The translations under genes were made by a program, and so were the position numbers. Under the pieces are notes generated by a model. The model did not search any database and had not been told where the DNA came from. It worked only from the letters and a program-made list of their open reading frames with translations. A stretch of 45,459 nucleotides of DNA from a virus, in IMG/VR virus record IMGVR_UViG_3300005295_000006, positions 1 to 45,459 of that record. One strand, given 5' to 3'. Positions 5,901-25,942 of this stretch are shown in pieces. Positions within the stretch are counted from its first letter, which is position 1; every line of letters starts with the position of its first letter.

Positions 5901-6447
5901 GGAGAACAGCGCGCTCCAGCTCAGTGTCGGGCCCCTCGGGACGCTCACGACCGAGGCGCTGACCGGCCGGCGGCCGTATGTGACCCGCGGAGGGAGCTTC
6001 CTGAAGGTGGCGGACGAGAGCAAGACCCAGCCGCTTCTCGAGAACCTGAAGGCCGGAGTCAAGGGCGCCGGGGTCTGGAGGGCCATCCCGGAGGAGGGCC
6101 AGCTCACGCCGGAGTCAGTCGCCGGCAAGACCGCTGCCATAATGGCGCAGCTCGCCGCGATTCCCGTCACCGTGAAGCCGGGGGAGAAGGTTCAGGCAAC
6201 AGCAGGGATCCGCGGCGCGCGCGGGGCGATGTACGAGGTCGCCCGGGACATTGCGCAGAAGGCGATGAACTTCCAGGACAGGAAGCAGCAGCACGGGTAT
6301 ATCGAGAGTCGCTTGACCCGGGATCTCGAGGGGACCGAGCTGGCGATGGGGCGGAAGGCGGTTGCCGAGATTATGAAGTCGATGCGCCGGAGTCAGAACC
6401 GGGCGCTGGGACAGTTGCCGAAGGCGCCGACCCCTCCTTCCCCTTGA
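2926..6447 (+). CDS. Large internal virion/ejection protein, 1173 aa
   Basis: GTG start at 2926 overlaps the previous gene. The N-terminus holds three repeats of an SDA(D/E)LEA(V/I)ASG unit (residues 1-55) separated by Pro/Gly linkers. A long helical body follows, with hydrophobic helical stretches around residues 860-930. I see no transglycosylase or peptidase motif. Size, position after two to three smaller helical proteins, and high Ala/Glu content fit the largest ejection-core protein of podoviruses (T7 gp16-like role), inferred from synteny. The last 77 bases overlap, tail to tail, the RuvC-like gene on the opposite strand. Confidence 0.75.
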   Translation: MPVSDAELEAVASGSQSAPAPPPAPGGVSDADLEAIASGRPVQAGGPSNADLTAVASGTHPEAKQEQPIWQRLIDFGHFIKAAPEAAGKIAESYVQGSFPSIPLPKGWTADAVATALHIPIDTLDFLTSSKMQPTNLGNLIEAGQQAAEMTGIPGTVRLAAHPVETLERAKEKPFSTLAPVVQAGLTLAGGARLLKGEAAPSTTPAQSADVGPTVLPTPPPLEELVATRKKLLGGDETLKAAGLTDEDLAAAATREQRQSLGARGRESFAKQGASGEEVAKLSVGQAEELGAMSGEQATAKSGEILGQMRGAPPLPAEQAPGNFQAVQKQVYKNLEEQGLGGRSRKQMAEEITSELDKRGFVPGEKEPVPGFLTELTPEEAAGEAGAEIRIAAEHPKASPEAVTRTADIAKEPLPQETDISGPVPPGSPPRPPGAISDLLGRVSDLFGLRPKFFRQFERAPDLAAGVSRQMNANAWLDQQRKVLTEEAHRAVPLEADRVQGMRFLVSERGKLLEGGKVPVMEAAEEANMSPGAKKFVQWWMTEFQPKFERMSTGAGIESRVQTPSGAFTSLKALRPEDLVAGRHVGGYEPGRSGNLVAKYRKLKSGAAKEAKGTGELYSVDPDEMIAHNLELRTTQFARNQLIDTVKAYQVLPDAEGNVPRETKFLGVIEPVTSLEVNPGRPNAEVLKVPATVKRMYDEAQRPPTESELKAFDYLNRHATTVALLSPVEMATHTYNVVNALTTMPGGVGSKAMAALGPPGKWAEAIAKMANVNDANYATDLLTLTEFGGSRRGMIAEGKANRVLEATRAPVFGTRGVENLSRVAALRGLRAWAPELNDAQRVQIINNTMGTYAEKLQPGFVRRLKQVTPIVGQPFAAAGVAMAKTAGKSLLGLGAKGFSPEVALTAGSSIALWYAVNKAMDPEHRDPMRAGGPIFPSIRVSQGKNQTVDVSLPMLTGMTGRGARVLGVTGLYEGIRDGRKPQDTALLVLRNLENSALQLSVGPLGTLTTEALTGRRPYVTRGGSFLKVADESKTQPLLENLKAGVKGAGVWRAIPEEGQLTPESVAGKTAAIMAQLAAIPVTVKPGEKVQATAGIRGARGAMYEVARDIAQKAMNFQDRKQQHGYIESRLTRDLEGTELAMGRKAVAEIMKSMRRSQNRALGQLPKAPTPPSP

Positions 6448-6901
6448 GCAGGTAGCGGTCGAGTGCCCACGCGAGCACCATCCTGGCATCCGCCTCGTTG
6501 TCATCCAGCAACCCGCATCCCCATCGAGACGCGCACTCGATCTGCATCTGTTCCTTCGAAGCATTTCCCTTTCCGGTCGACCACTTCTTGAGCGTGGAGG
6601 TGTGCACGGAGACATGGTGCAGTCCGTGTAGCGCGCAGAACTCGTGGACCCTGGTTTCGAATCCCGCGAGGATCTGTGTCGCTGCTCCTCCCCGGTGGTG
6701 TGCAGCCTCGTATGCGATGAGCTCCGTCTGCGCCAGCGGTGGGGCGAAGTGCGCCGCGAGCCACTGATTAAACTTCAGGAAGCGCATCCCGACGCTCTCT
6801 CCCCGCTGAATTGAGAAGTCTACGGTCCCGGACTCCGCGCGGTTGCCGTTCCAGTATGCCCAGCCGGTCATCGTTCCAAGGTCAAGTGCGAGTACGTTCA
6901 T
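6371..6901 (-). CDS. RuvC-like Holliday-junction resolvase
   Basis: ATG at 6901 with AAGGAG upstream; the longer frame to 7075 is rejected. The protein is 176 aa. The RNase H-fold signature MNVLALDLGTMTGW gives Asp7; Glu65 (LIAYEA) and Asp134/Asp138 (DDNEADA) complete an acidic catalytic set as in RuvC-type resolvases. It would resolve branched DNA before packaging. It is the last gene of the leftward operon, coupled by ATGA to the gene before it. Its 3' end overlaps the convergent ejection-protein gene by 77 bases. The Ser/Pro/Ala tail (158-176) looks like a disordered extension created by that overlap. Confidence 0.85.
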   Translation of the reverse strand: MNVLALDLGTMTGWAYWNGNRAESGTVDFSIQRGESVGMRFLKFNQWLAAHFAPPLAQTELIAYEAAHHRGGAATQILAGFETRVHEFCALHGLHHVSVHTSTLKKWSTGKGNASKEQMQIECASRWGCGLLDDNEADARMVLAWALDRYLLKGKEGSAPSATVPAPGSDSGASTS

Positions 6902-7206
6902 TCGTTCTCCTTTATCCAGTAGACCCAGCCGTCTTGCGGCACGGGTAACAGGTCCATGTCGACACATCCCGCATCGTCGCTCGTCGTGAACGGCCCCCAC
7001 TGCTCGGTGTCGAAGTATCCGCAGGGACCGATGCAATCGCTCACCAGCGCGCATCCCGGAGATGGTTGCCAGCAAGGGCAGTGGTCACACTGCGCGTCGT
7101 TCCATTCGATTCCACCGTCCTGGTGCTTCACGACCGAGACCAGTACCGGGGCCGGCGGCGCGGCGATTTCCAGACAGATCAGGTTGACGAGCAGAGCTAG
7201 GAACAT
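6898..7206 (-). CDS. Predicted secreted Cys-rich protein, 102 aa
   Basis: The N-terminus (residues 1-23) is hydrophobic and ends in APPAP, like an export signal but without the usual positive n-region. The mature part has seven or more cysteines (QCDHCPCW, PGC, DCIGPC, GC), suggesting disulfides after export or metal binding if cytoplasmic. The stop overlaps the RuvC start (ATGA). The start overlaps the 20-aa microprotein 7197-7259. No family recognised. Confidence 0.65.
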   Translation of the reverse strand: MFLALLVNLICLEIAAPPAPVLVSVVKHQDGGIEWNDAQCDHCPCWQPSPGCALVSDCIGPCGYFDTEQWGPFTTSDDAGCVDMDLLPVPQDGWVYWIKENE

Positions 7207-7259
7207 TTGGGATCCCTATACGGATGCTTATGCGTCACGCACTCCGTCCCGCAGGTCAT
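7197..7259 (-). CDS. HPYRDPKC microprotein, copy 1 (20 aa)
   Basis: A 20-codon frame starts MTCGTECVTHKHPYRDPKCS-type, giving Cys3, Cys7, His10, His12 and Cys19, spacing C-x3-C-x2-H-x-H-x6-C. It starts in an ATGA overlap with the stop of the HNH gene (7256) and overlaps the next gene start by 10 bases. Three further copies with the same core lie at 7814-7882, 9274-9456 and 10978-11070. Conservation of the peptide in one frame and the start-stop coupling argue for translation. Zinc binding is inferred from the residues only. Confidence 0.6.
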   Translation of the reverse strand: MTCGTECVTHKHPYRDPKCS

Positions 7260-7813
7260 GGCTTCTCCATAGGCAGCGCTGGCTGTTTCGTGCGGCTCAG
7301 AGATAAGCGCTTTCTCAAGGCGGCGGTCTCCCGCCGATGGCACGGAACACAAAGGGTCCGGGCGTTCTCTAGTGAGTCGGTCCCGCCCTCTACGACCGGC
7401 ACGATATGGTCGGCCTCCCAGAGACACATTTTCCACTTGTCCCAAGTCCAGCCGTGGAGTGCCATGAAGAGCCGCCTGATTCCCCAGCACGCATTTCCGG
7501 CGTAGCCGCCCGGATAATCCGGCACGTTCTCGGCTCGCCTGATCTCTTCCAGCTCGCGTTCGAGCGCTGCGGTATCGAGCCCGCACGTTGAGCAGACGCC
7601 TTTGTCTCGCTTCCAGACCTGATCCCGGAAATAACTTGGGTCCGCCTGAATCCTGTAGGCCGAGACGCAGGCTGCCGAGCACCACGAGATCCTGCCTTTC
7701 GGAACTTCCTTGCGGCACCAGGTGCATAACCGTCGGCCATTGGGACCGCGGGCCTCGCCGATTTCCTTTCGCAGCGCGTGGGCCTTGCGGCTTCCCGAAG
7801 CCCTGCCGCTCAT
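7256..7813 (-). CDS. HNH endonuclease
   Basis: The 185-aa protein has an N-terminal CTWC...CSAAC zinc knuckle (about residues 30-49), CSTCG (about 74-78) and a classic HNH core EADHIVPVVEGGTDSLENA followed by CVPCHRRE. It would cut DNA. The ATG at 7813 directly follows the stop of microprotein copy 2, and its stop overlaps microprotein copy 1, so it is flanked by two copies of the HPYRDPKC module. It could be a homing-type nuclease, a packaging-associated HNH, or a host-DNA nuclease; the sequence does not decide. Confidence 0.85.
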   Translation of the reverse strand: MSGRASGSRKAHALRKEIGEARGPNGRRLCTWCRKEVPKGRISWCSAACVSAYRIQADPSYFRDQVWKRDKGVCSTCGLDTAALERELEEIRRAENVPDYPGGYAGNACWGIRRLFMALHGWTWDKWKMCLWEADHIVPVVEGGTDSLENARTLCVPCHRRETAALRKRLSLSRTKQPALPMEKP

Positions 7814-7882
7814 TCACAGGCCCTCACATCGCGGATCTCTGTAAGGATGCTCATGCGTCACGCATTCCGTCCCGCAGGTCAT
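7814..7882 (-). CDS. HPYRDPKC microprotein, copy 2 (22 aa)
   Basis: The peptide begins MTCGTECVTHEHPYRDP and ends RCEGL. The ATG at 7882 overlaps the methyltransferase stop (ATGA), and the stop is immediately followed by the HNH start at 7813. It therefore fills the 65-base space between two enzymes exactly. It has the same C-x3-C-x2-H-x-H-x6-C core as the other copies. Its function is unknown; it may be a zinc-binding microprotein or a translational coupling cistron. Confidence 0.6.
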   Translation of the reverse strand: MTCGTECVTHEHPYRDPRCEGL

Positions 7883-9273
7883 AGCCTGCTACCTATCCAC
7901 TGAATCACGCTCACCGTCACAGCGTTCCCAAGCGCTTTGTACCGTGGCGAGTCGGGGCACTTGCAACGCATGGCTGCCTCGTCTGTATCTTCTCGGTACG
8001 CCTCCAGCGGCTGGCAGAGACACGTCCACCCATCGGGGAAGGCTTGCAGGCGTTCGCACTCAAGAGGCGTGAGACGACGGACGCCGACAGGCATCCGCTG
8101 GAGGTTCATCATCACCCCGTCAGTTGGCCCACGCCCTCTCTGATCCAGCGTGGCGGCTACCAAGTGCTCCCCTGGCTCCGTCCTGAAGCCTCCATCATTC
8201 CCGCCGCTGTTGAGCGTGGCGAAGAATGCAGACTCTTCTGCTATCATCCGCCTGGCTTCTGCTAGCACCTCAACAAGTGCGTCTTTGGTCAGGCAGCCGT
8301 CCCATCCTTCATCCACATGGAATCGATCTGGGAAGTCTGGACAGACAGTAACCGTGGGCATCCTCGTCAGCATCCTCGAATTCTCTACCGTCACGATGGG
8401 CGTCCCCCTGCCAGTGCCGTCCTCGCTAGCGTCGTGGCCCTCGCTGGTCAGGGCGTGAATCAGTGTCGGACCTCCTCCTCCTGGACTGTCACAGTGCCGT
8501 GCATCGGAGGCAGCAAGGGCATTCGAGAGAACCAAGTTCACGTCGTCTTCCCCGCCTCGCCCCGGTTCGTTGACGCCAGGGCTTTTAGAGCGTCCTCTAA
8601 GGGTCGCGGCAACTCCCTCCCGCGCTTCTCCGCTCTCCTGAGAATCCCCGCCGCCGCCTTCGGGCTCAAAAAGTACTTGGCGGACACTCGCCTCTGAAGG
8701 ACCGCAGATAAAGAACACGCGGCGACGTCTTTGGGCGACTCCGAAGTGACGGCTGTCCAGAATCCGGTATCCGACAGAAGGCCAGCATTGCCGAAGTCCC
8801 GAGAGGACGGTCCACATATCGGCTCCCCCTCCACTGCTAAGGAGCCCTGGAACATTCTCGAAGAGTCCCCATTGCGGCTTGACGATCTGTGCGATGCGAA
8901 GGATTTCTGAGAACAGGCCGGAGCGAGCTCCGCTGAGTCCGGCTCGCTTGCCTGCGACGGAGAGGTCTTGGCAGGGGAAGCCGCCACAGATGAGGTCAAC
9001 AGGAAAGGTGCTTGCGTGAATCCCCCGGGCTGGTTCAGCGATGGGGCCACTTCCATTTCCCTCGTCTCTCGCCGCTGGTTCGTGACGTACAGGACATTCA
9101 TCCCCGTCGCCTTGCCACTCCCGCACGTCAGTCCAGCGGGGAGCGTTAAAGCGCTCTCGGAGAACTCGCTGGCAGAATCCGTCAATTTCGATTTGTCCCG
9201 CGCACTCATGGCCTGCACGCTCCAGTCCGAGGTCGAAGCCGCCTATACCAGCAAAGAGGGAAAGAAAGCGCAT
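7879..9273 (-). CDS. C5-cytosine DNA methyltransferase
   Basis: The 464-aa protein shows ordered C5-methyltransferase motifs: SLFAGIGGFDLGLERAG (motif I, residues 5-21), GGFPCQDLS with catalytic Cys101, ENVPGLL (139), QRRRRVFFICG (181), RRLTPLECERLQAFPDGW (motif IX) and YKALGNAVTVSVIQWIG (motif X). It transfers a methyl group from S-adenosylmethionine to cytosine in a specific site. The stretch between motifs VIII and IX (about 195-400) is the variable target-recognition region, Gly- and Asp-rich and longer than usual. It probably masks phage DNA from host restriction. Stop and start are coupled to microprotein genes on both sides. Confidence 0.93.
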   Translation of the reverse strand: MRFLSLFAGIGGFDLGLERAGHECAGQIEIDGFCQRVLRERFNAPRWTDVREWQGDGDECPVRHEPAARDEGNGSGPIAEPARGIHASTFPVDLICGGFPCQDLSVAGKRAGLSGARSGLFSEILRIAQIVKPQWGLFENVPGLLSSGGGADMWTVLSGLRQCWPSVGYRILDSRHFGVAQRRRRVFFICGPSEASVRQVLFEPEGGGGDSQESGEAREGVAATLRGRSKSPGVNEPGRGGEDDVNLVLSNALAASDARHCDSPGGGGPTLIHALTSEGHDASEDGTGRGTPIVTVENSRMLTRMPTVTVCPDFPDRFHVDEGWDGCLTKDALVEVLAEARRMIAEESAFFATLNSGGNDGGFRTEPGEHLVAATLDQRGRGPTDGVMMNLQRMPVGVRRLTPLECERLQAFPDGWTCLCQPLEAYREDTDEAAMRCKCPDSPRYKALGNAVTVSVIQWIGSRL

Positions 9274-9456
9274 TCACGCCTCGCACTTCGGATCTCTGTA
9301 AGGGTGCCCATGTGTTTCACAGAGAGTCCCGCAGTGGACCAGGACGACGCCGTGATGCCCGAGTACCCACTTGATCCCACTCCACCAGGATTCCATCCAG
9401 TCCTCGTAGATGCGCGGGGAGGGGTGGCACTGGCACAGCTCGGAGTGGTGGGTCAT
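9274..9456 (-). CDS. Two-module Cys/His microprotein with HPYRDPKC copy 3 (60 aa)
   Basis: The ATG at 9456 is chosen because GAGG lies seven bases upstream and ATGA overlaps the stop of the 13-aa frame 9453-9494. Residues 1-22 (MTHHSELCQCHPSPRIYEDW) duplicate the microprotein at 11896-11970. The C-terminus (VHCGTLCETHGHPYRDPKC) is the HPYRDPKC module. The gene is thus a fusion of two modules found separately elsewhere in the operon. It ends directly before the methyltransferase ATG. Confidence 0.6.
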   Translation of the reverse strand: MTHHSELCQCHPSPRIYEDWMESWWSGIKWVLGHHGVVLVHCGTLCETHGHPYRDPKCEA

Positions 9457-9494
9457 GGCCATTCCTCGCCACATTTCTGGCAGCATGGACCCAT
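9391..9494. repeat. 104-bp duplicated block, copy A
   Basis: Matches 11905-12008 with about two mismatches over 104 bases. It carries the end of a CCQKCGEEWP reading frame, the GAGGA ribosome-binding site and the first ~20 codons of the MTHHSELCQCHPSPR microprotein. Copy A keeps only a 13-codon remnant of the upstream zinc protein; copy B keeps all of it. Confidence 0.9.
9453..9494 (-). CDS. 13-codon CCQKCGEEWP mini-ORF (truncated copy)
   Basis: ATG at 9494 with AAAGG upstream encodes MGPCCQKCGEEWP, identical to the last 13 residues of the 63-aa protein at 11967-12158. Its TGA overlaps the next ATG. It lies inside the duplicated block. It may be a decaying copy, or may be retained to couple translation of the following microprotein. 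Confidence 0.4.
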   Translation of the reverse strand: MGPCCQKCGEEWP

Positions 9495-9550
9495 GTATTT
9501 AACCTTTGGCCAACGATGATGACGATGGAACAGGAAGCACCACAGGCGTT

Positions 9551-9763
9551 TCACTTGCCTTCACCATCCCCCAGCGCGGACTTGACGGCGCGGGCGACAC
9601 AGAAATGAATCGTATGTGTCTTTGTGACCCACACAACCTTGTCGGCCTGATAGGCTTCCTGCTCTCTCTTCTTCATCGTGTTCCATTCGATGCCGCGCCA
9701 GGAAGCCCCATTCTTGGCGGAGGCCAGGAGAATCCCGCAGCCACGGCAGTAGGTCGGATTCAT
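9551..9763 (-). CDS. Small zinc-knuckle hypothetical protein, 70 aa
   Basis: The N-terminus reads MNPTYCRGCGILL, a CxxC knuckle; a later Cys in HFCVARAV may complete a site. The rest is basic and helical. The ATG overlaps the preceding stop (ATGA). The 56 bases downstream to 9495 hold no gene I can support. Function unknown. Confidence 0.65.
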   Translation of the reverse strand: MNPTYCRGCGILLASAKNGASWRGIEWNTMKKREQEAYQADKVVWVTKTHTIHFCVARAVKSALGDGEGK

Positions 9764-10134
9764 CCCCTCACCTTCGCTTTCAGCTTGCGGGCCTCGGAGC
9801 GGATTGTGCTCTGGCAGGCCTCTAACTCATCACTCACGCCTTCAAAATAGGATGTTCCAATCTTGGTGCTGCCTTCGTCGTCAAGTGGCTGTACCTCATT
9901 TAGCATCCTCGCGCAGCTCATCATCGCCTTGTAGGCTGCAGCGCGTTCGACTTCAAGAAGCAGGCCATACATCTCGGAATGATTGGGAGCAAGGGGATTC
10001 CAGTGAAGGTAAAGCCTCTCCCGTGCGCTCGGCTTCCTCTGTCTCCGTGGTCCTTCTCGTGTCGGCCCCACATTGGCCTCGTATGCAGCGTTTTCGTCTG
10101 TGCCTAGTCCAGTCATGTCCCGTGGCTGCTTCAT
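9760..10134 (-). CDS. Hypothetical protein, 124 aa
   Basis: No recognised domain. The N-terminal 45 residues are polar and basic; the middle is helical with a hydrophobic face. It ends KLKAKVRG, and the upstream neighbour ends LAKVRG; both are followed by a GAGGGGATGA junction, so the coupling sequence itself is repeated. ATGA overlaps occur at both ends. Base composition is less GC-rich than in the structural genes. Confidence 0.65.
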   Translation of the reverse strand: MKQPRDMTGLGTDENAAYEANVGPTREGPRRQRKPSARERLYLHWNPLAPNHSEMYGLLLEVERAAAYKAMMSCARMLNEVQPLDDEGSTKIGTSYFEGVSDELEACQSTIRSEARKLKAKVRG

Positions 10135-10661
10135 CCCCTCACCTTCGCGAGGCAGTCGCGGTGCTTTTCAGAGAATCTAGCGCGAATTGCATTTGCATGG
10201 ATGCGCAATAAACTGGCGGTTGTATCTGCTAGCGGATGCTCTCGCTCAAGCGTATGTGAGATCGCCTCAAGGTTTTCCGCCCATTCCTCACCAATCTCTC
10301 GCTTAGCCCCATTGACGGCATCAATCACCAATTGCACGTCAATCAGCTTTCTATCATCAGTAATTCTGCGGGCCAGACGAAACCAATCTTCCTTGTCCGC
10401 TTCTCCGATATGCTCCCAAGAAATTACTCCTCTTCGGCTCTGGACAATCGTCTGTCGTAGTCCTCTGGCAAGAGCCTCCAATTCTGTTGGCAAGACCGGA
10501 AGCAGCAATTCATTCTGCACAGCGAGAACAAGACAGTCCAGCAGATCATTCAGAAGCGGAGCCTTCCATTTGTCTTTTGGTAGTCCTCCGCCGTAAACAT
10601 GGATCTCTTCTCTGGCCGCTTCAATTGCTGGACTACTTGTCGGCTTTGGGCACGAAATCAT
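10131..10661 (-). CDS. Hypothetical helical protein, about 176 aa
   Basis: Start at 10661 (or 10667) overlaps the end of the preceding gene by about 30 bases. The sequence is mostly helical, with a conserved-looking acidic/aromatic core (WEHIGEADKEDWFRLARRI). No enzyme motif. This gene and the next one upstream are visibly less GC-rich than the rest of the window, which suggests later acquisition. Function unknown. Confidence 0.6.
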   Translation of the reverse strand: MISCPKPTSSPAIEAAREEIHVYGGGLPKDKWKAPLLNDLLDCLVLAVQNELLLPVLPTELEALARGLRQTIVQSRRGVISWEHIGEADKEDWFRLARRITDDRKLIDVQLVIDAVNGAKREIGEEWAENLEAISHTLEREHPLADTTASLLRIHANAIRARFSEKHRDCLAKVRG

Positions 10662-10956
10662 AGGCACGCTCCAGAATTTTGCGATGGTTCTCTTTGGCGG
10701 AATCTACCAGGAAGCGAATCCAACTACCCGATAGCTTCTCTGGTGTTTCTACTTGGTCGGAATACCGCCCATTTTCTCGAAGCTCGCTATTTACCGCATC
10801 GGCAACGGAGGCCAAAATTCCCTCATAATCATGTGCCAGGGCTGCACGGAGTCGATAAAAACACTTGTCTGATAGCTCTACCTCAATTTGGCTCATCACT
10901 CGGCCTCGGACCCTTAGCAAGTAATTTAAGTCCCGAAGAAGCGTGTGCTCATCCAT
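10633..10956 (-). CDS. Hypothetical protein, 107 aa
   Basis: Starts MDEHTLLRDLNYLLRVRGRV and continues as charged helices. It is AT-richer than average for the window. A ten-codon frame (10949-10981, ending CKHG) links it by short overlaps to microprotein copy 4 upstream. No family recognised. Confidence 0.6.
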   Translation of the reverse strand: MDEHTLLRDLNYLLRVRGRVMSQIEVELSDKCFYRLRAALAHDYEGILASVADAVNSELRENGRYSDQVETPEKLSGSWIRFLVDSAKENHRKILERAYDFVPKADK

Positions 10957-10977
10957 GCTTGCACAAACCCAGTCCGA

Positions 10978-11070
10978 TCATTGATTCACCCTCTCGCACT
11001 TCGGATCTCTATAAGGGTGCCCATGTGCGCAGAATTCCGTCCCGCAGTGGACCAGGACGACGCCGCTCAT
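10978..11070 (-). CDS. HPYRDPKC microprotein, copy 4 (30 aa)
   Basis: Begins MSGVVLVHCGTEFCAHGH, then PYRDPKCERVNQ. The GVVLVHCGT lead is shared with copy 3. The ATG at 11070 overlaps the stop of the 40-aa gene 11067-11189 (ATGA). Its own stop overlaps a ten-codon frame. The CGTE/HGHPYRDPKC core matches the other three copies; the Cys spacing differs by one residue (C-x4-C). Confidence 0.6.
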   Translation of the reverse strand: MSGVVLVHCGTEFCAHGHPYRDPKCERVNQ

Positions 11071-11189
11071 GAATCCTTCCGCATAAGGACGCTGCGTCCT
11101 TGAAAGACTGGGTGATAGGCCACGACACGCCAGCCAAGGCTGTAAAGAAGTGCCATTAGCTCAGCGTTCTTGACCCATTGGAATGTCAT
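11067..11189 (-). CDS. Hypothetical microprotein, 40 aa
   Basis: A 40-aa frame begins MTFQWVKNAELMALLYSLGW and ends MRKDS. Its ATG overlaps the methyltransferase stop (ATGA), and its TGA overlaps the next ATG (ATGA). A frame fitting exactly between two such overlaps is unlikely by chance. A small helix followed by a basic strand is predicted by eye. Function unknown. Confidence 0.6.
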   Translation of the reverse strand: MTFQWVKNAELMALLYSLGWRVVAYHPVFQGRSVLMRKDS

Positions 11190-11899
11190 AGGGGTAGAAC
11201 CTCCTGGCTCATCCGCCTTGCAGCTATCTCGCAGTATTTCTCGTTAATCTCGATGCCAATGGCTTTGCGGTGAAAGTCCTTCGCAGCACGGAGTGTCGTT
11301 CCTGACCCCATGTATGGATCGAGAATTAGATCGCCGGGGACGGTGAACAGGACGACAAGCTCTTTCATCAACAGAAGCGGCTTCTGTGTCGGATGCTCGT
11401 TGGGTCCTGGTTCGCCACCATTCTTGTTGAAAACGAATACCCCGTGGCGTCCGCCTCCGTTCCATTCCGACTTTCCTGGCGCATGCATCATGACAATGCT
11501 TTCATAGCCCATTCCAGGGCGGTCCCCAGAATATTGAGGCATGCCATCAGGCTTAACCCATACTGCTGTGCGCTTGTAAGTCAAGCCGCCTGGGTCTTCG
11601 AAGTGACCTCTCCATTCCATTGCAGCTTCCACTTGGCAGAAACACAGAACCCAGCCCTGGACAATCCGCCCAATTCCATAGGAGACCTTGAGGCGCTGGT
11701 AGTCATCCATAGGGGCAAAGTCAAGCGGCTCCATTACCATCACACCACCTCCGCGCTTTACTCTTCTCTGCAAGGTATGTGCCTCGGCTTCATACGGAGG
11801 ATCAGTGATGACATGATCAACTTTCTCAATATCCGGCAGCACATCCCGACAATCCCCGCAGTAGATAGTCACGGCATCATCCTGGTAATAGGGCTTCAC
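11186..11899 (-). CDS. Beta-class DNA methyltransferase (N6-adenine or N4-cytosine)
   Basis: GTG at 11899, coupled by GTGA to the upstream microprotein; the frame extending to 11986 is rejected. The protein is 237 aa. Motif order is DPPY (residues 33-36), then HPTQKP (169-174), then LDPYMGSGTTLRAA (193-206, SAM binding), the arrangement of beta-class amino-methyltransferases. It methylates the exocyclic amino group of adenine or cytosine at an unknown site. No cognate restriction enzyme is adjacent, so a protective orphan role is likely. Confidence 0.92.
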   Translation of the reverse strand: MKPYYQDDAVTIYCGDCRDVLPDIEKVDHVITDPPYEAEAHTLQRRVKRGGGVMVMEPLDFAPMDDYQRLKVSYGIGRIVQGWVLCFCQVEAAMEWRGHFEDPGGLTYKRTAVWVKPDGMPQYSGDRPGMGYESIVMMHAPGKSEWNGGGRHGVFVFNKNGGEPGPNEHPTQKPLLLMKELVVLFTVPGDLILDPYMGSGTTLRAAKDFHRKAIGIEINEKYCEIAARRMSQEVLPL

Positions 11900-11970
11900 A
11901 GGGCTTCCATCCAGTCCTCGTACACGCGCGGGGAGGGGTGGCACTGGCACAGCTCGGAGTGGTGGGTCAT
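11896..11970 (-). CDS. Cys/His microprotein MTHHSELCQCH, 24 aa
   Basis: Starts MTHHSELCQCHPSPRVYEDW, with His3, His4, Cys8, Cys10 and His11. ATG at 11970 is preferred to 11976 because GAGG sits seven bases upstream and the ATG overlaps the zinc-protein stop (ATGA). It ends in a GTGA overlap with the methyltransferase. The same module forms the first part of 9274-9456. Confidence 0.6.
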   Translation of the reverse strand: MTHHSELCQCHPSPRVYEDWMEAL

Positions 11971-12008
11971 GGCCATTCCTCGCCACATTTCTGGCAGCAT
12001 GGACCCAT
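11905..12008. repeat. 104-bp duplicated block, copy B
   Basis: Near-identical to 9391-9494. It covers the 3' end of the 63-aa zinc protein and most of the MTHHSELCQCH microprotein. The duplication boundary falls just before the last 13 codons of the zinc protein. Confidence 0.9.
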
Positions 12009-12158
12009 TCCCGTGATCGGCATGATTGGGGAAGCGCCGCAGACCTCGCACTTCCCGCCCCAATCTGGATCGGTCTGAGAGCACGGGGTGTCGTGATGCT
12101 CTATCCCATCCTCGTAACACTTCGGCCCGCACGCCAAAGGCTTGCGCTCACTTCCCAC
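11967..12158 (-). CDS. Zinc-ribbon-like small protein, 63 aa
   Basis: GTG at 12158 with AAGGAG seven bases upstream. Cysteines occur as ACGPKC, PC, CEVC and CCQKC, giving two CxxC knuckles suitable for a zinc ribbon. It starts inside the end of the preceding gene (11-base overlap) and ends in ATGA with the next. A truncated copy of its end occurs at 9453-9494. Zinc binding inferred; function unknown. Confidence 0.7.
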   Translation of the reverse strand: MGSERKPLACGPKCYEDGIEHHDTPCSQTDPDWGGKCEVCGASPIMPITGMGPCCQKCGEEWP

Positions 12159-12486
12159 GGGAGGACTCCTTCGCTGTCAGCACTCGCAGCTTCCATCGCA
12201 GCCAGGCGTTGACCTTCTTCCAACGCTTCTGTGCGGAGCCAGGACCAGGAGGCACCGAATCGTTGACTGCTGCCACTTCATCAATGAGGGAAGAACGCAA
12301 GACTAGCTTAGGATTGTCTGTCCAGAAGCAGCCGATGGCACAGTGATTCCCATAGGCATCATCGAGTCGTCCGTGAATCAGAATACGCCGCTTCGCTACA
12401 GCATCGCGAATGAGGAATAACGCGGTATCATCCGGCAGCGCTCGCGTGGTCGCTGTCGTAGTTTCTGGCCTTAACTTGCTACTCAC
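12148..12486 (-). CDS. Hypothetical protein, 112 aa
   Basis: GTG at 12486 with a strong AAGGAGGG ribosome-binding site. The protein is mixed alpha/beta by eye, ending in a basic Trp-containing helix (KRWKKVNAWLRWKLR). No domain recognised. Its 3' end overlaps the zinc-ribbon gene. Confidence 0.65.
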   Translation of the reverse strand: MSSKLRPETTTATTRALPDDTALFLIRDAVAKRRILIHGRLDDAYGNHCAIGCFWTDNPKLVLRSSLIDEVAAVNDSVPPGPGSAQKRWKKVNAWLRWKLRVLTAKESSRGK

Positions 12487-12519: not shown

Positions 12520-12927
12520 CTACTGAATCGCTTTGACTCGAACCTTCACACAGTCTCCGCAGGCCCCCTGACAGCCCAGCACATTGCCGGCAGCGTCCCG
12601 GTATGTGGTAGCGCATACCCACTTGGGCGGGGTTGTTGTCTTCTCGGCCCCCACAACCAGGGCTGTGGCATTCCTGATGCTTGCGTCGAATTCCGACATC
12701 TCCAGCGGTGGCAGTCCATGCTTCTTCCGTTGCTCAGGATTAACGACATGGAAAGGGACATCCACCATGCCAAGGACTGTTCCATCCTGGTCTTCAACGG
12801 TCACACAGTAGCCGATGCCGGTGCCATTGAGGCCCTTGATGGGCAGCTCAGGTTTACCGCCAGCGAGAGTGAAGGGCAGCACACAGAGGGCAAGCAGCAG
12901 GGCACAGAAAGCAAGTCGGACTCTCAT
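12520..12927 (-). CDS. Predicted secreted Cys-containing protein, 135 aa
   Basis: ATG at 12927 with AAGGAG upstream, chosen because it gives a clear Sec signal peptide: MRVRLAFCALLLALCVLPF followed by TLAGG, cleavage likely near residue 23. The mature protein has Cys pairs (YCVTVEDQDG, VCATTY, GCQGACGDC). The start overlaps the stop of the HTH gene (ATGA). A periplasmic or membrane-associated role in altering the infected cell is possible, but nothing identifies it. Confidence 0.65.
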   Translation of the reverse strand: MRVRLAFCALLLALCVLPFTLAGGKPELPIKGLNGTGIGYCVTVEDQDGTVLGMVDVPFHVVNPEQRKKHGLPPLEMSEFDASIRNATALVVGAEKTTTPPKWVCATTYRDAAGNVLGCQGACGDCVKVRVKAIQ

Positions 12928-13139
12928 GGAGTCTCCTTGTGGGTTGAGTGAGGCGAGCGCGGCCTTTTCCATCCCCTCGCCTCTGCTTTGCGGAACCAGT
13001 TATGAATCGTCTGCACAGAACGGTTACAGCGCTTTGCGATCTGCGGGAGCGTGAGCCCTTCGTAGCGGGCTAGGACAGCCAGCTCAACGAGTTCCGGCAC
13101 CTTCCTCCCGTTGTCCAGCTTCGCCCAGTCCCGCGGCAT
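12924..13139 (-). CDS. HTH DNA-binding protein, about 71 aa
   Basis: Contains a helix-turn-helix of the homeodomain-like/transposase type: LTLPQIAKRCNRSVQTIHNW followed by basic FRKAEARGWKR. The ATG at 13139 (or GTG at 13142) is preferred because an upstream TTG would overlap the previous gene. It may regulate the leftward operon or bind the phage origin; no target can be deduced. Coupled by ATGA to the secreted-protein gene. Confidence 0.7.
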   Translation of the reverse strand: MPRDWAKLDNGRKVPELVELAVLARYEGLTLPQIAKRCNRSVQTIHNWFRKAEARGWKRPRSPHSTHKETP

Positions 13140-15239: not shown

Positions 15240-15728
15240 CTAGGCTCCCTTATGAGATGCGATCAGCCAGTCCGGCTGTGCCTTGCGGCGTCCTTTGCGA
15301 ATTGCATCCTGGATGTTGTCTCGCTGCGTGCCCACGAAGAGATGCGCCGGGTTGACGCATGCCCGATTGTCGCAGCTATGCAAAACTAGAATCCCATCCG
15401 GGATGCTGGCCCTCTTCATTTCGAATGACAGTCTGTGCGCTCGGTACTGTTTCCCGGCCGGGTTTGTGAAGACTCCATAGCCATTGTGATTCCGTGCCCC
15501 TGTCCATTCCCAGCAGCCCGCTGTTCGTTTCACTCGCGCCCAGAAGCGCTCAGCGAATGGCCTACGCTGTCTTGGGCCGGATGCGCCGCCTCCAGATCGG
15601 TTCCGTGGAGCCCTGTTGGCACAAAGCCTGGAGCAAAACTTTCTTCGGCTGGTGTGTCTATCTGAGGCCCTGAATTCGCACTTGCAGGCGCGACATTTTT
15701 TGGTTGCGCAAAGCCTTGGATCTGCCAT
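15240..15728 (-). CDS. HNH homing-type endonuclease
   Basis: The 162-aa protein begins with a zinc knuckle (CRACKCEF...KFCSRLC), then CWEWTG--NHNGYGVF, YRAHRLSFEM, and the HNH core LHSCDNRACVNPAHLFVGTQRDN, typical of free-standing phage HNH endonucleases. It sits between the exonuclease and the annealing protein, immediately abutting the latter (TAGATG). Such nucleases usually promote their own spread, so it is probably an insertion in the recombination module. Confidence 0.88.
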   Translation of the reverse strand: MADPRLCATKKCRACKCEFRASDRHTSRRKFCSRLCANRAPRNRSGGGASGPRQRRPFAERFWARVKRTAGCWEWTGARNHNGYGVFTNPAGKQYRAHRLSFEMKRASIPDGILVLHSCDNRACVNPAHLFVGTQRDNIQDAIRKGRRKAQPDWLIASHKGA

Positions 15729-15737
15729 TCTATCTCC

Positions 15738-16598
15738 CTAGCGACGGCTCTTCCCGAAGGCGCATATATTATAATACCCACACCAATTCGCGCTACACCA
15801 CCAGCTTTCAGGGTTCGTCGGAATGAATACCTCTTTTTCGATTGCCTCCGCTGCTTTCCCAAGGCGCAGCGTCAGCCTGTGCAGGTCCGCCTCGGTTCGT
15901 GCTGACTTGTTCAGGTACGGTGTCTCTTTCCCGCCTTTCGTCCGCACCAGGGTATCGAGCACGACCTCGGACGGAAGCCTTCCCTTCTCCGCCTGGTAAA
16001 GCAGAGCGTACATCGTGAGCTGCTCGCTCGTCTCGGCGGCGTCTTCGTTCGGGGCCTTCGAGCTCGTCTTCGTGTCCCGCACCGCTGCGGCGTCATCCTC
16101 GACATCGATTATCCCGGTCAGGTCCATGGGGAAGATCGCGGGGTCCGTCCTGAGCGTGATCTGCTTCTCCACGGCCACGGGTTGAAAGGTCGGGCTTACC
16201 TTGAGGGTATGCAGTGCGGCCAGGCCAATCGCCATGTCCTTCGTATCGCCTTTTATGAGGCTCATTCCCCGTGAGCGCTCTTCCTCAGTCAGGGCGATCT
16301 CTCCCATGAAGGCGGCGTCCACGGCATCTCGGGCGGCGTCCTTCACGTCGTCTACGGGCAGCTCCACGCCGCTCTTGATCTTCTGCCGGAGGTTCACCGC
16401 AACCCCGGTGTGAACCGCGGAGCCACGCAGTAGCGCCACGGTCGGGGCCATCTTGATCCCTTCGACGTAGCGGTAGAAGTACTGCATCCCGCAGCGCTGG
16501 AGCATCGTGAGCTGGGTGGAACTGAAGACGCGGCGCTTCTCTCCCATGGTCGGCGGGTCTTCCATATGAATTAGGGCTTCCAGTTCCTTCAGGTTCAT
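15738..16598 (-). CDS. PD-(D/E)XK exonuclease with Fe-S cysteines (Cas4/AddB-like)
   Basis: ATG at 16598 with AAGGAG; the longer frame to 16811 is rejected. The protein is 286 aa. Motifs: FSSTQLTMLQRCGMQYFYRY (Cys36), LLRGSAVHTG (His63), GIIDVED (Asp165), VRDTKTSSK (Asp175, Lys177), QLTMYALLY (Gln193), and C-terminal WCSANWCGYYNICAF with Cys268, Cys273 and Cys279. Cys36 plus the three C-terminal cysteines match the 4Fe-4S ligands of Cas4/AddB-type nucleases. It would resect DNA ends to feed the annealing protein. Confidence 0.88.
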   Translation of the reverse strand: MNLKELEALIHMEDPPTMGEKRRVFSSTQLTMLQRCGMQYFYRYVEGIKMAPTVALLRGSAVHTGVAVNLRQKIKSGVELPVDDVKDAARDAVDAAFMGEIALTEEERSRGMSLIKGDTKDMAIGLAALHTLKVSPTFQPVAVEKQITLRTDPAIFPMDLTGIIDVEDDAAAVRDTKTSSKAPNEDAAETSEQLTMYALLYQAEKGRLPSEVVLDTLVRTKGGKETPYLNKSARTEADLHRLTLRLGKAAEAIEKEVFIPTNPESWWCSANWCGYYNICAFGKSRR

Positions 16599-16615
16599 CC
16601 CACTCCTTAAGGGGA

Positions 16616-16685
16616 GCCTCCGTCCCCAACCCCTTGGCTTCGGAGGCCCCCATCGGCACCGTGAAAGGGGGAACCAAACACGGTG
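16616..16685. repeat. Two inverted repeats in the gap before the exonuclease gene
   Basis: In the 94-base gap 16599-16692, GCCTCCG (16616-16622) pairs with CGGAGGC (16641-16647), and CACCGTG (16657-16663) pairs with CACGGTG (16679-16685). On the leftward transcript they form two adjacent hairpins just upstream of the exonuclease ribosome-binding site. There is no T-run, so a processing or translational-control element is more likely than a terminator. Confidence 0.5.
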
Positions 16686-16692
16686 CAGATCG

Positions 16693-16848
16693 TCAATGTT
16701 TCGTACACTCGCAGACATAGACCAATTTTTTGCACTGCGGACACTCTGGCAACGCGAGATGCGGCGACTTCTGGAGTTCCTCCATTCTCTCTTTCTTGTT
16801 CTGGCACACACATTCGAATAGATCCCGCTGGCACTTCATGCACCACAT
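16693..16848 (-). CDS. Double zinc-knuckle microprotein, 51 aa
   Basis: ATG at 16848 with AAGGAG. Two near-equivalent halves: CMKCQRDLFECVC and CPQCKKLVYVCEC, each CxxC-x6/7-CxC. Eight cysteines in 51 residues fit two zinc sites. Overlaps the preceding gene by 13 bases. Function unknown. Confidence 0.75.
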   Translation of the reverse strand: MWCMKCQRDLFECVCQNKKERMEELQKSPHLALPECPQCKKLVYVCECTKH

Positions 16849-24882: not shown

Positions 24883-25325
24883 ACGAAGCGGACGCTCTCG
24901 CCATCGACTACCACGCCATCATCCGGGCGCTGCCGATCCTGTTCTCCGGGATCGCGACGGGCGAGCTGTATCAGTGGTGCATCTGGAAGAGCAAAAATCC
25001 GGACAAGAAATGGCGCGGCTACTGGATCCAGGGACTTCCCCACATGGGGATGAACGCAGCGATTGTGCTGGGATGCTTCACCGCGTGGCACTGCGGCGCA
25101 CTCTCGAAAATCATCGAGCTGTTTGGCGGCACTCCGATTGCGCAGCTCCTTGCTGTCTCTCCCCCGGTGGGCTATCTGATTACGCTCATGGCCGACGTAC
25201 TCGGAGACCAGATCGCCTATGCACTGCAAGCGCGGTTCGGGAAGTTCTTCAAGAAGGCCAATTCGACGCCCCCGGAAACTGGCGGCGCCCCACAACCACC
25301 GATCGTCCCGCAGGAGGCACCTTGA
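24879..25325 (+). CDS. Holin candidate with three membrane segments, 148 aa
   Basis: ATG coupled by ATGA. Hydrophobic segments at about residues 15-36 (RALPILFSGIATGELYQW), 58-78 (MNAAIVLGCFTAWHCGAL) and 88-110 (LLAVSPPVGYLITLMADV), then a charged, Pro-rich C-terminus. Size and topology fit a class I holin. Candidates at 24589 and 25939 compete for this role. Confidence 0.6.
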   Translation: MNEADALAIDYHAIIRALPILFSGIATGELYQWCIWKSKNPDKKWRGYWIQGLPHMGMNAAIVLGCFTAWHCGALSKIIELFGGTPIAQLLAVSPPVGYLITLMADVLGDQIAYALQARFGKFFKKANSTPPETGGAPQPPIVPQEAP

Positions 25326-25942
25326 AACGACTGATCCTGTTTCTCGCGATTGCCATGTTGACTTCTCCGCTCGCCCTGGCTGGACAAGACGCCTACAAGA
25401 AGGGCACCAGTGTGGTGCGATTTCTGGGCGGCTACGGGAGCACGCAGGAGATCCCGGGGACTGCGGAAGAGTACGCGGATCCGGTAGACCCCACCCCGCC
25501 CCCTCCGCCGGATCCGCCATCCGGATGTCACGACGATGGAGTAGGCGAGTGCCACGGCACCGGGAACGATCACTACGGCAACGCCGAGGATACGAAACAC
25601 GGGACGGTGGGACTGGGATACTCCTACTTCCTCGCGGAGGACGTGAGTCTCGAGTTGGCGCTATTCGTGCCGGCCGGTGACGCCGGGACCGATAATCTCG
25701 GAGCGAGCGCTGGGCTTGACTACTTCTTCGGGCATTTCTACATCCCGCTCCAAATGAATTATCGGGGAGACCTCGACAGCTTAGGATTTGCAACTGGCGG
25801 AGGTCTCGACTATCGGGTCGGTAAGGCGACCGTCCTTCGGGGACAGATCACAGGGAACTACGTCGGCGATTCAGACGTTGACGACCATTGGGGATGGCAG
25901 CTCGGCGCCTCGATTGGATGGGTACTGGGCGCGAACGAGTGA
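25322..25942 (+). CDS. Predicted outer-membrane beta-barrel protein with signal peptide
   Basis: TTG at 25322 overlaps the preceding gene. The 206-aa product begins with a textbook signal peptide (MKRLILFLAIAMLTSPLALA, cleavage after residue 20). A loop with PTPPPPPDPP and a Cys/His-rich CHDDGVGECHGTGNDH stretch follows, then about six to eight amphipathic strands (VGLGYSYFLAEDVSLELALF ... WGWQLGASIGWVLG) typical of small OmpA/OmpW-like barrels. Lambda Lom is a precedent for a phage-encoded outer-membrane protein. Possible roles are superinfection exclusion or envelope change; location within the lysis cassette suggests late expression. Confidence 0.75.
   Translation: MKRLILFLAIAMLTSPLALAGQDAYKKGTSVVRFLGGYGSTQEIPGTAEEYADPVDPTPPPPPDPPSGCHDDGVGECHGTGNDHYGNAEDTKHGTVGLGYSYFLAEDVSLELALFVPAGDAGTDNLGASAGLDYFFGHFYIPLQMNYRGDLDSLGFATGGGLDYRVGKATVLRGQITGNYVGDSDVDDHWGWQLGASIGWVLGANE

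Follow-up and report, generated by a model that had tools for sequence, protein, structure and literature searches.

It has long been asked how the joints of phage mosaics come to lie at gene boundaries. Experimental work shows that such mosaics form by homology-driven, relaxed homologous recombination that tolerates divergence (PMC3945230), and the mycobacteriophage papers describe boundary sequences as not findable at most joints (PMC3029335, PMC3233612). Promoter early stem-loops (PeSLs) of T4-like phages have been reported, as relayed in PMC4503421 from Arbiol 2010 and Comeau 2014, to mediate shuffling. The locus described here offers several clear boundary sequences and is best classed as a coding form of the phage boundary sequence, an idea already known.

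The window analysed is the whole of IMG/VR record IMGVR_UViG_3300005295_000006 (45,459 bases, 61% GC). Its HPYRDPKC copies are more than chance repeats: they represent one small gene, hereafter the module, together with its severed and reused ends. Three relatives carry the module or its domain, namely IMGVR_UViG_3300005336_000013 (G001, also L014), IMGVR_UViG_3300025910_000022 (G002, also L007) and IMGVR_UViG_3300044847_000031 (G003, also L005). Two others, IMGVR_UViG_3300036851_000359 (G004, 54.6% GC) and IMGVR_UViG_3300005546_000008 (G007, 51.8% GC), are without it. Portal proteins of the window and its relatives share about 31-45% amino acid identity and DNA similarity is almost nil; these phages are distant cousins.

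An intact module gene and its severed ends

A first-pass annotation of this DNA had presented four peptides with a common HPYRDP(K/R)C core as equivalent microproteins. The four ORFs and their peptides are indeed present where it placed them, all on the minus strand and with profile E-values of 1e-7 to 4e-41; the pattern has four occurrences in all 45,459 nt, none of them on the other strand, and a reversed-pattern control has none. Their equivalence, however, does not hold. Copies 1, 2 and 4 align to the C-terminal third to half of copy 3 only: they are stubs from the C-terminal end of a longer gene. One of them is paired, across a methyltransferase gene, with an N-terminal stub that had been overlooked. 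The intact copy 3 encodes MTHHSELCQCHPSPRIYEDWMESWWSGIKWVLGHHGVVLVHCGTLCETHGHPYRDPKCEA (60 aa). The N-terminal stub, MTHHSELCQCHPSPRVYEDWMEAL, is a 24-26 aa ORF at 11896-11970/76 and lies within a 115-nt repeat (9380-9494 / 11894-12008) that matches the start of copy 3 at 95% identity. Copies 1 and 2 share 85% identity over a stretch that spans exactly the 60-nt ORF piece. Intact homologues of copy 3 in G001 (78% identical) and G003 (52%) keep CxCH, the Trp residues and HPYxDPxC, which shows the 60-aa form to be ancestral.

The features of the locus are collected in Table 1, where the methyltransferase, HNH and RuvC-like assignments are Pfam and PHROGs matches. In transcription order, genes for 112-aa and 63-aa proteins precede the N fragment, the beta-class methyltransferase, the 40-aa ORF and copy 4; genes for 107-aa, 178-aa, 124-aa, 70-aa and 33-aa proteins then lead to copy 3, which is followed by the C5 methyltransferase, copy 2, HNH, copy 1, a 102-aa gene and the RuvC-like gene. 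Most junctions are 4-nt start-stop overlaps or abutments, and the end of copy 2 (TGTGAGG) gives the HNH gene its Shine-Dalgarno-like sequence. The earlier description of a duplicated module set between coupled cistrons and adjoining DNA-modification genes is supported.

Table 1. Module pieces, neighbouring genes and junction linkers of the window, in order of descending position
Feature	Position	Strand	Matches and remarks
Exonuclease	15738-16811		
Linker ESSRGK*/GSERK, 112-aa/63-aa gene junction	12140-12170	-	31 nt at 100% in G001; 20 nt at 100% in G002
N-terminal fragment of split copy, 24 aa, upstream of beta-class methyltransferase	11896-11970	-	profile E 1.5e-13
Beta-class (N6/N4) DNA methyltransferase, 237 aa	11186-11899	-	PF01555 1.9e-29, phrog_67 1.6e-49
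40-aa ORF, second cargo gene	11067-11189	-	no family (Pfam, PHROGs)
Copy 4, C-terminal fragment of split copy, 30 aa	10978-11070	-	
Linker ...DCLAKVRG*/ATGA, 178-aa/124-aa gene junction	10124-10161	-	31 nt at 100% in G001
KVRG*/ATGA linker end, second copy, 124-aa/70-aa junction	9759-9777	-	19-nt repeat
Copy 3, intact 60-aa module gene	9274-9456	-	CxCH, Trp-rich segment, VHCGT..H.HPYRDPKC; profile E 3.6e-41
C5 cytosine methyltransferase, 464 aa, directly after copy 3	7879-9273	-	PF00145 8.3e-49, phrog_116 7e-74
Copy 2, 22-aa C-terminal fragment, between C5 methyltransferase and HNH	7814-7882	-	
HNH endonuclease, 185 aa, between copies 2 and 1	7256-7813	-	PF01844 2.2e-9, phrog_11604 1.3e-14
Copy 1, 20-aa C-terminal fragment, after HNH	7197-7259	-	
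RuvC-like resolvase	6371-6901		Pfam/PHROGs match

Several further genes of the window deserve mention. The 102-aa protein (6898-7206) is Cys-rich, has a hydrophobic N-terminus and belongs to no family; conserved in G001 and G002, it borders the variable module region on its downstream side there too. The 150-aa protein encoded at 12520-12972 begins with a signal-like stretch and ends in a Cys-rich tail; it has no Pfam or PHROGs match, and its 165-aa homologue in L005 (11968-12465) was unmatched in the phage collection. A second HNH endonuclease of another type (15240-15728) is about 57% identical, over the best stretch, to an HNH endonuclease of G001 near 25,054-25,338, the DNA being otherwise not alignable. 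The 124-aa gene (9760-10134) has extra segments relative to its 69-aa L007 homologue and carries at its end a repeat of the KVRG*/ATGA linker with which the gene before it ends.

The module was found in four contigs only. With the intact protein as query, tblastn gave no match in phages and only matches of E>0.2 in plasmids; GTDB scans with the A3 profile of the module and with the linker found no relatives, and none of the papers searched contained HPYRDP together with the word phage. Pattern matches L009-L013 were rejected as module, being out-of-frame or unrelated.

Unrelated cargo in the split allele

The beta-class methyltransferase and the 40-aa ORF of the window sit within a split copy of the module, the methyltransferase starting at a GTG (11899) that overlaps the stop of the N fragment. 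G002 has the same N fragment; behind it stands a 172-aa methyltransferase from another family (phrog_799, E 4.7e-52), after which comes the C fragment. In both alleles the N piece ends GGATGGAA and the C piece starts AGCGGCGTC, the identical 39 nt of the intact gene are absent and the cargo DNA is unrelated; given the four contigs with the module, these common breakpoints rest on two phages. The part that is missing (WWS...WV.G) is conserved between diverged intact proteins, which makes the intact form the older of the two. Copy 4 in turn is a recombinant, its first informative sites (the 5' part) following the G002 piece and its later sites following copy 3 (P = 0.00015). From the common breakpoints and this chimeric copy, the simplest history would be one split followed by exchange of cargo between the two arms. 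A group I/II intron or an intein restoring the intact product was ruled out: the split gene has no Rfam match, stops interrupt the sequence between the pieces and, with 39 nt lost, the halves cannot exactly rebuild the intact protein.

We consider it probable, if some way from certain, that the locus consists of a gene of about 60 aa and its severed pieces, and that these pieces act as coding boundary sequences for the swapping of cargo by homologous recombination in a start-stop-coupled operon. Such a history would begin with the placing of a cargo gene inside the module gene, with loss of 39 nt from its middle, as the split and the deletion common to both alleles suggest. The N and C pieces would then serve as homology arms through which co-infecting phages swap cargo by homologous recombination. 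Duplication would also have placed C-terminal pieces after both the C5 methyltransferase and the HNH gene, yielding the order module, C5 methyltransferase, C piece, HNH, C piece. Exchange may be aided by the phage exonuclease and the RuvC-like resolvase encoded in the window, in which no single-strand annealing recombinase was recognised, and may be initiated by HNH action, along the lines suggested for HEGs that lie at exchange boundaries (PMC10448857).

The nuclease could also have played the leading part. If the HNH enzyme cut the module in cassette-free phages and repair copied the cassette, the repeats would be homing flanks, a scenario that agrees with the location of HNH between copies 2 and 1, with an HNH gene directly after the intact module in L005, and with HEGs at phage exchange boundaries (PMC10448857) and split genes in T4-like phages (PMC2988022). 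It nevertheless seems rather unlikely, as the split alleles hold methyltransferases, not HNH, and the two HNH proteins have different best matches in PHROGs (phrog_11604 versus phrog_826). The array form of the locus, in which the module is followed by two units each made of a gene and a C piece, also recalls an integron-like cassette array in which a site-specific recombinase would act on the C pieces. The window proteins searched, a subset of its ORFs, included no integrase or transposase, the C pieces fold no better than shuffles and no terminal inverted repeats were found at the cargo ends; this explanation is disfavoured and close to negligible.

Joints, reading frame and selection

Beyond the module, other junctions of the same region bear linkers of the same kind. 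When the window is compared with its distant relatives, DNA of 90-100% identity lies mainly at gene junctions, comprising the module and linkers of 23-45 nt, with unrelated genes on either side. Over 45 kb, blastn against G001 returned the module copies, two 31-nt junction segments at 100% and parts of the 102-aa gene, and nothing else. The linker at 10124-10161 recurs in G002, G004 and G007 at 95-97% over 33-38 nt. Linkers recur at 96-100% identity in G004 and G007, where DCLAKVRG*/ATGA is 97% identical to that of the window, and these two phages share further 23-45 nt segments with G001 and G002. Once the linkers are trimmed, the genes beside 12140-12170 and 10131-10161 are unrelated to their G001 counterparts; of the genes that flank the linkers, the 124-aa gene alone has clear homologues, which are in G002 and G004.

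The linkers of the window cluster at ORF ends. All seven fall no more than 12 nt from one (expectation 1.8; none of 20,000 trials as high) and six of the seven within 5 nt (P = 0.0005), while at zero tolerance three of seven contain an ORF end, which is not significant (P = 0.13). The clustering is weaker for the segments that G001 has in common with G004 and G007: four of six are near ORF ends (P = 0.014) and two are gene-internal. Linker-tag matches in L026, L027 and L029 are probably due to chance, as these show no blastn similarity to the window, G001, G002 or G004.

Repeats of a similar sort were seen at gene starts and ends elsewhere. Three consecutive genes of L022 (4018-4036, 4383-4401 and 4582-4600, minus strand) share the start tag M(S/T)RPDD (ATGASYMGACCTGACGATT) and then diverge; the tag, also found at L014 4126-4144 and 4304-4322, belongs to the start-associated repeats of the same shuffling region. 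L007 4391-5029 and L022 5687-6160 encode related proteins that both end RCEVKE* from 23 nt of identical DNA, preceded by an HPYTDPRC domain in one protein and by an unrelated stretch in the other, which suggests that the domain was swapped in at the gene end.

In the last element of the proposed scheme, the start codon of every piece is still fused to the stop before it (ATGA), and many pieces end in purine-rich sequence directly ahead of the next start, an anatomy by which any inserted gene may stay translationally coupled. Anti-SD pairing at the module junctions is only moderate, reaching -6.8 and -8.0 kcal/mol where the random median is -4.2. Strong translational or regulatory constraint on junctions could, as a counterpoint, conserve short linkers without exchange. 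Conservation of junction DNA for coupled initiation or RNA regulation would account for the SD-like sequence and the ATGA start-stop overlaps in the linkers, but the similarity of the module spans 153 nt of coding sequence, there is no Rfam match, the module pieces lack stable hairpins (z -1.3 to 0.6), unrelated genes surround the same linker and copy 4 is chimeric. We regard this explanation as quite improbable.

The encoded protein belongs to no named family, in agreement with the first-pass annotation: nothing above noise was found in Pfam, PHROGs, NCBIfam, PADLOC or PDB, and an NCBIfam match of one homologue (E 0.043) was dismissed as noise. Residues kept in three intact proteins include C8, C10, H11, C42, H49, H51 and C58 (copy 3 numbering), a Cys/His pattern that makes a metal site plausible; the AlphaFold model of the intact protein (mean pLDDT 42.8) is unusable. 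In L005 the domain also occurs inside a 137-aa protein (weak profile score, E 0.05), and in L007 a 212-aa protein has it at the C-terminus (weak profile score, E 0.001); it thus seems appendable to other genes.

The frame appears to be under purifying selection. Copies 1 and 2 begin at the same truncation point and so probably diverged after truncation; they differ at 8 nt (Sd 5.5, Nd 2.5; dN/dS about 0.07), with a P of 0.001-0.009 under neutral simulation, depending on transition bias. Copy 3 and its G001 homologue differ by 8.5 silent and 10.5 replacement changes over 53 codons. From the comparison of copies 1 and 2, the frame of even the 20-22 aa stubs has been maintained, through a need for the peptide itself or through re-seeding from intact copies, and the stub peptides of 20-30 aa may still have a role.

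It is tempting to go further and regard the truncated copies as functional microproteins, that is, a mobile Cys/His peptide that binds metal or partners an enzyme, with DNA similarity as a by-product. The mainly silent differences between copies 1 and 2, the open frame with a start in every piece and the occurrence of the domain within the L005 and at the end of the L007 protein all speak for this. It is doubtful all the same, without being negligible. The stubs lack the CxCH half, and recombination with intact paralogues could re-seed them, as the chimeric copy 4 illustrates, and so mimic the signature of selection. The CGTxC motif, put forward earlier as invariant, was overstated, since copy 4 has CGTEFC and the second Cys is absent in L014 (CGTEY) and L005 (CGQ). 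Nor is there support for a partner peptide of the adjacent enzymes: these vary from phage to phage (beta-class methyltransferase, C5 methyltransferase, phrog_799 methyltransferase, two kinds of HNH and an unknown 111-aa protein) and the module stays constant. The alternative offered alongside it, a mobile coupling cassette, comes close to what the data show.

Coding joints that exchange cargo by homologous recombination remain our preferred account. A bolder version would see a class of phages with an early operon made of standard coding joints, in which pieces of a microprotein gene serve both as arms for recombination and as couplers of translation while also being expressed as peptides under selection, allowing recombinase-free, integron-like exchange of methyltransferases and nucleases between distant phages; taken in full, this is unlikely.

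Relation to described systems

With two unrelated methyltransferases in the same split gene, in phages almost without DNA similarity, the model of homologous exchange becomes directly testable. Near-identical joints around different methylating and cutting genes suggest how phages swap genes without breaking a packed operon, and they carry a warning that a short ORF repeated in a phage operon may be no more than the cut-off end of a gene, yet can remain under selection.

The locus has features in common with several known systems. With PeSLs, as presented in PMC4503421, it shares gene shuffling and the repetition of cassettes at the junctions of a variable early region; it departs from what is given there in that its pieces have no hairpin beyond shuffles, there is no intergenic cassette and the cistrons overlap. 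Integron gene cassettes, which have an attC-like folded site and a tyrosine recombinase, differ in the same direction: here there is no fold beyond shuffles, there are no inverted repeats and there is no recombinase among the window proteins searched. In free-standing homing endonuclease insertions (mobE in Aeh1 nrdA, mobA; PMC2988022), as here, an inserted enzyme gene splits a gene and both halves remain ORFs, and in HEG islands (PMC10448857), as here, HNH genes stand at exchange boundaries; the cargo of the split allele, however, is a methyltransferase, and 39 nt of the host gene are lost. SegB-driven segmental amplification (PMC13096335) likewise involves a nuclease gene in a repeated phage segment and short-homology recombination, but the present locus shows no tandem amplification of one segment, and its cargo differs between repeats. 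The closest likeness is to the short conserved boundary sequences of phages (PMC3029335, PMC3233612), in that near-identical short DNA, without similarity elsewhere, lies at gene boundaries between different flanking genes in diverged phages. What sets the locus apart from those described is that the boundary DNA is itself coding and made of pieces of one ORF family, five copies or pieces of which stand in a single genome, with paired N and C arms around the swapped cargo.
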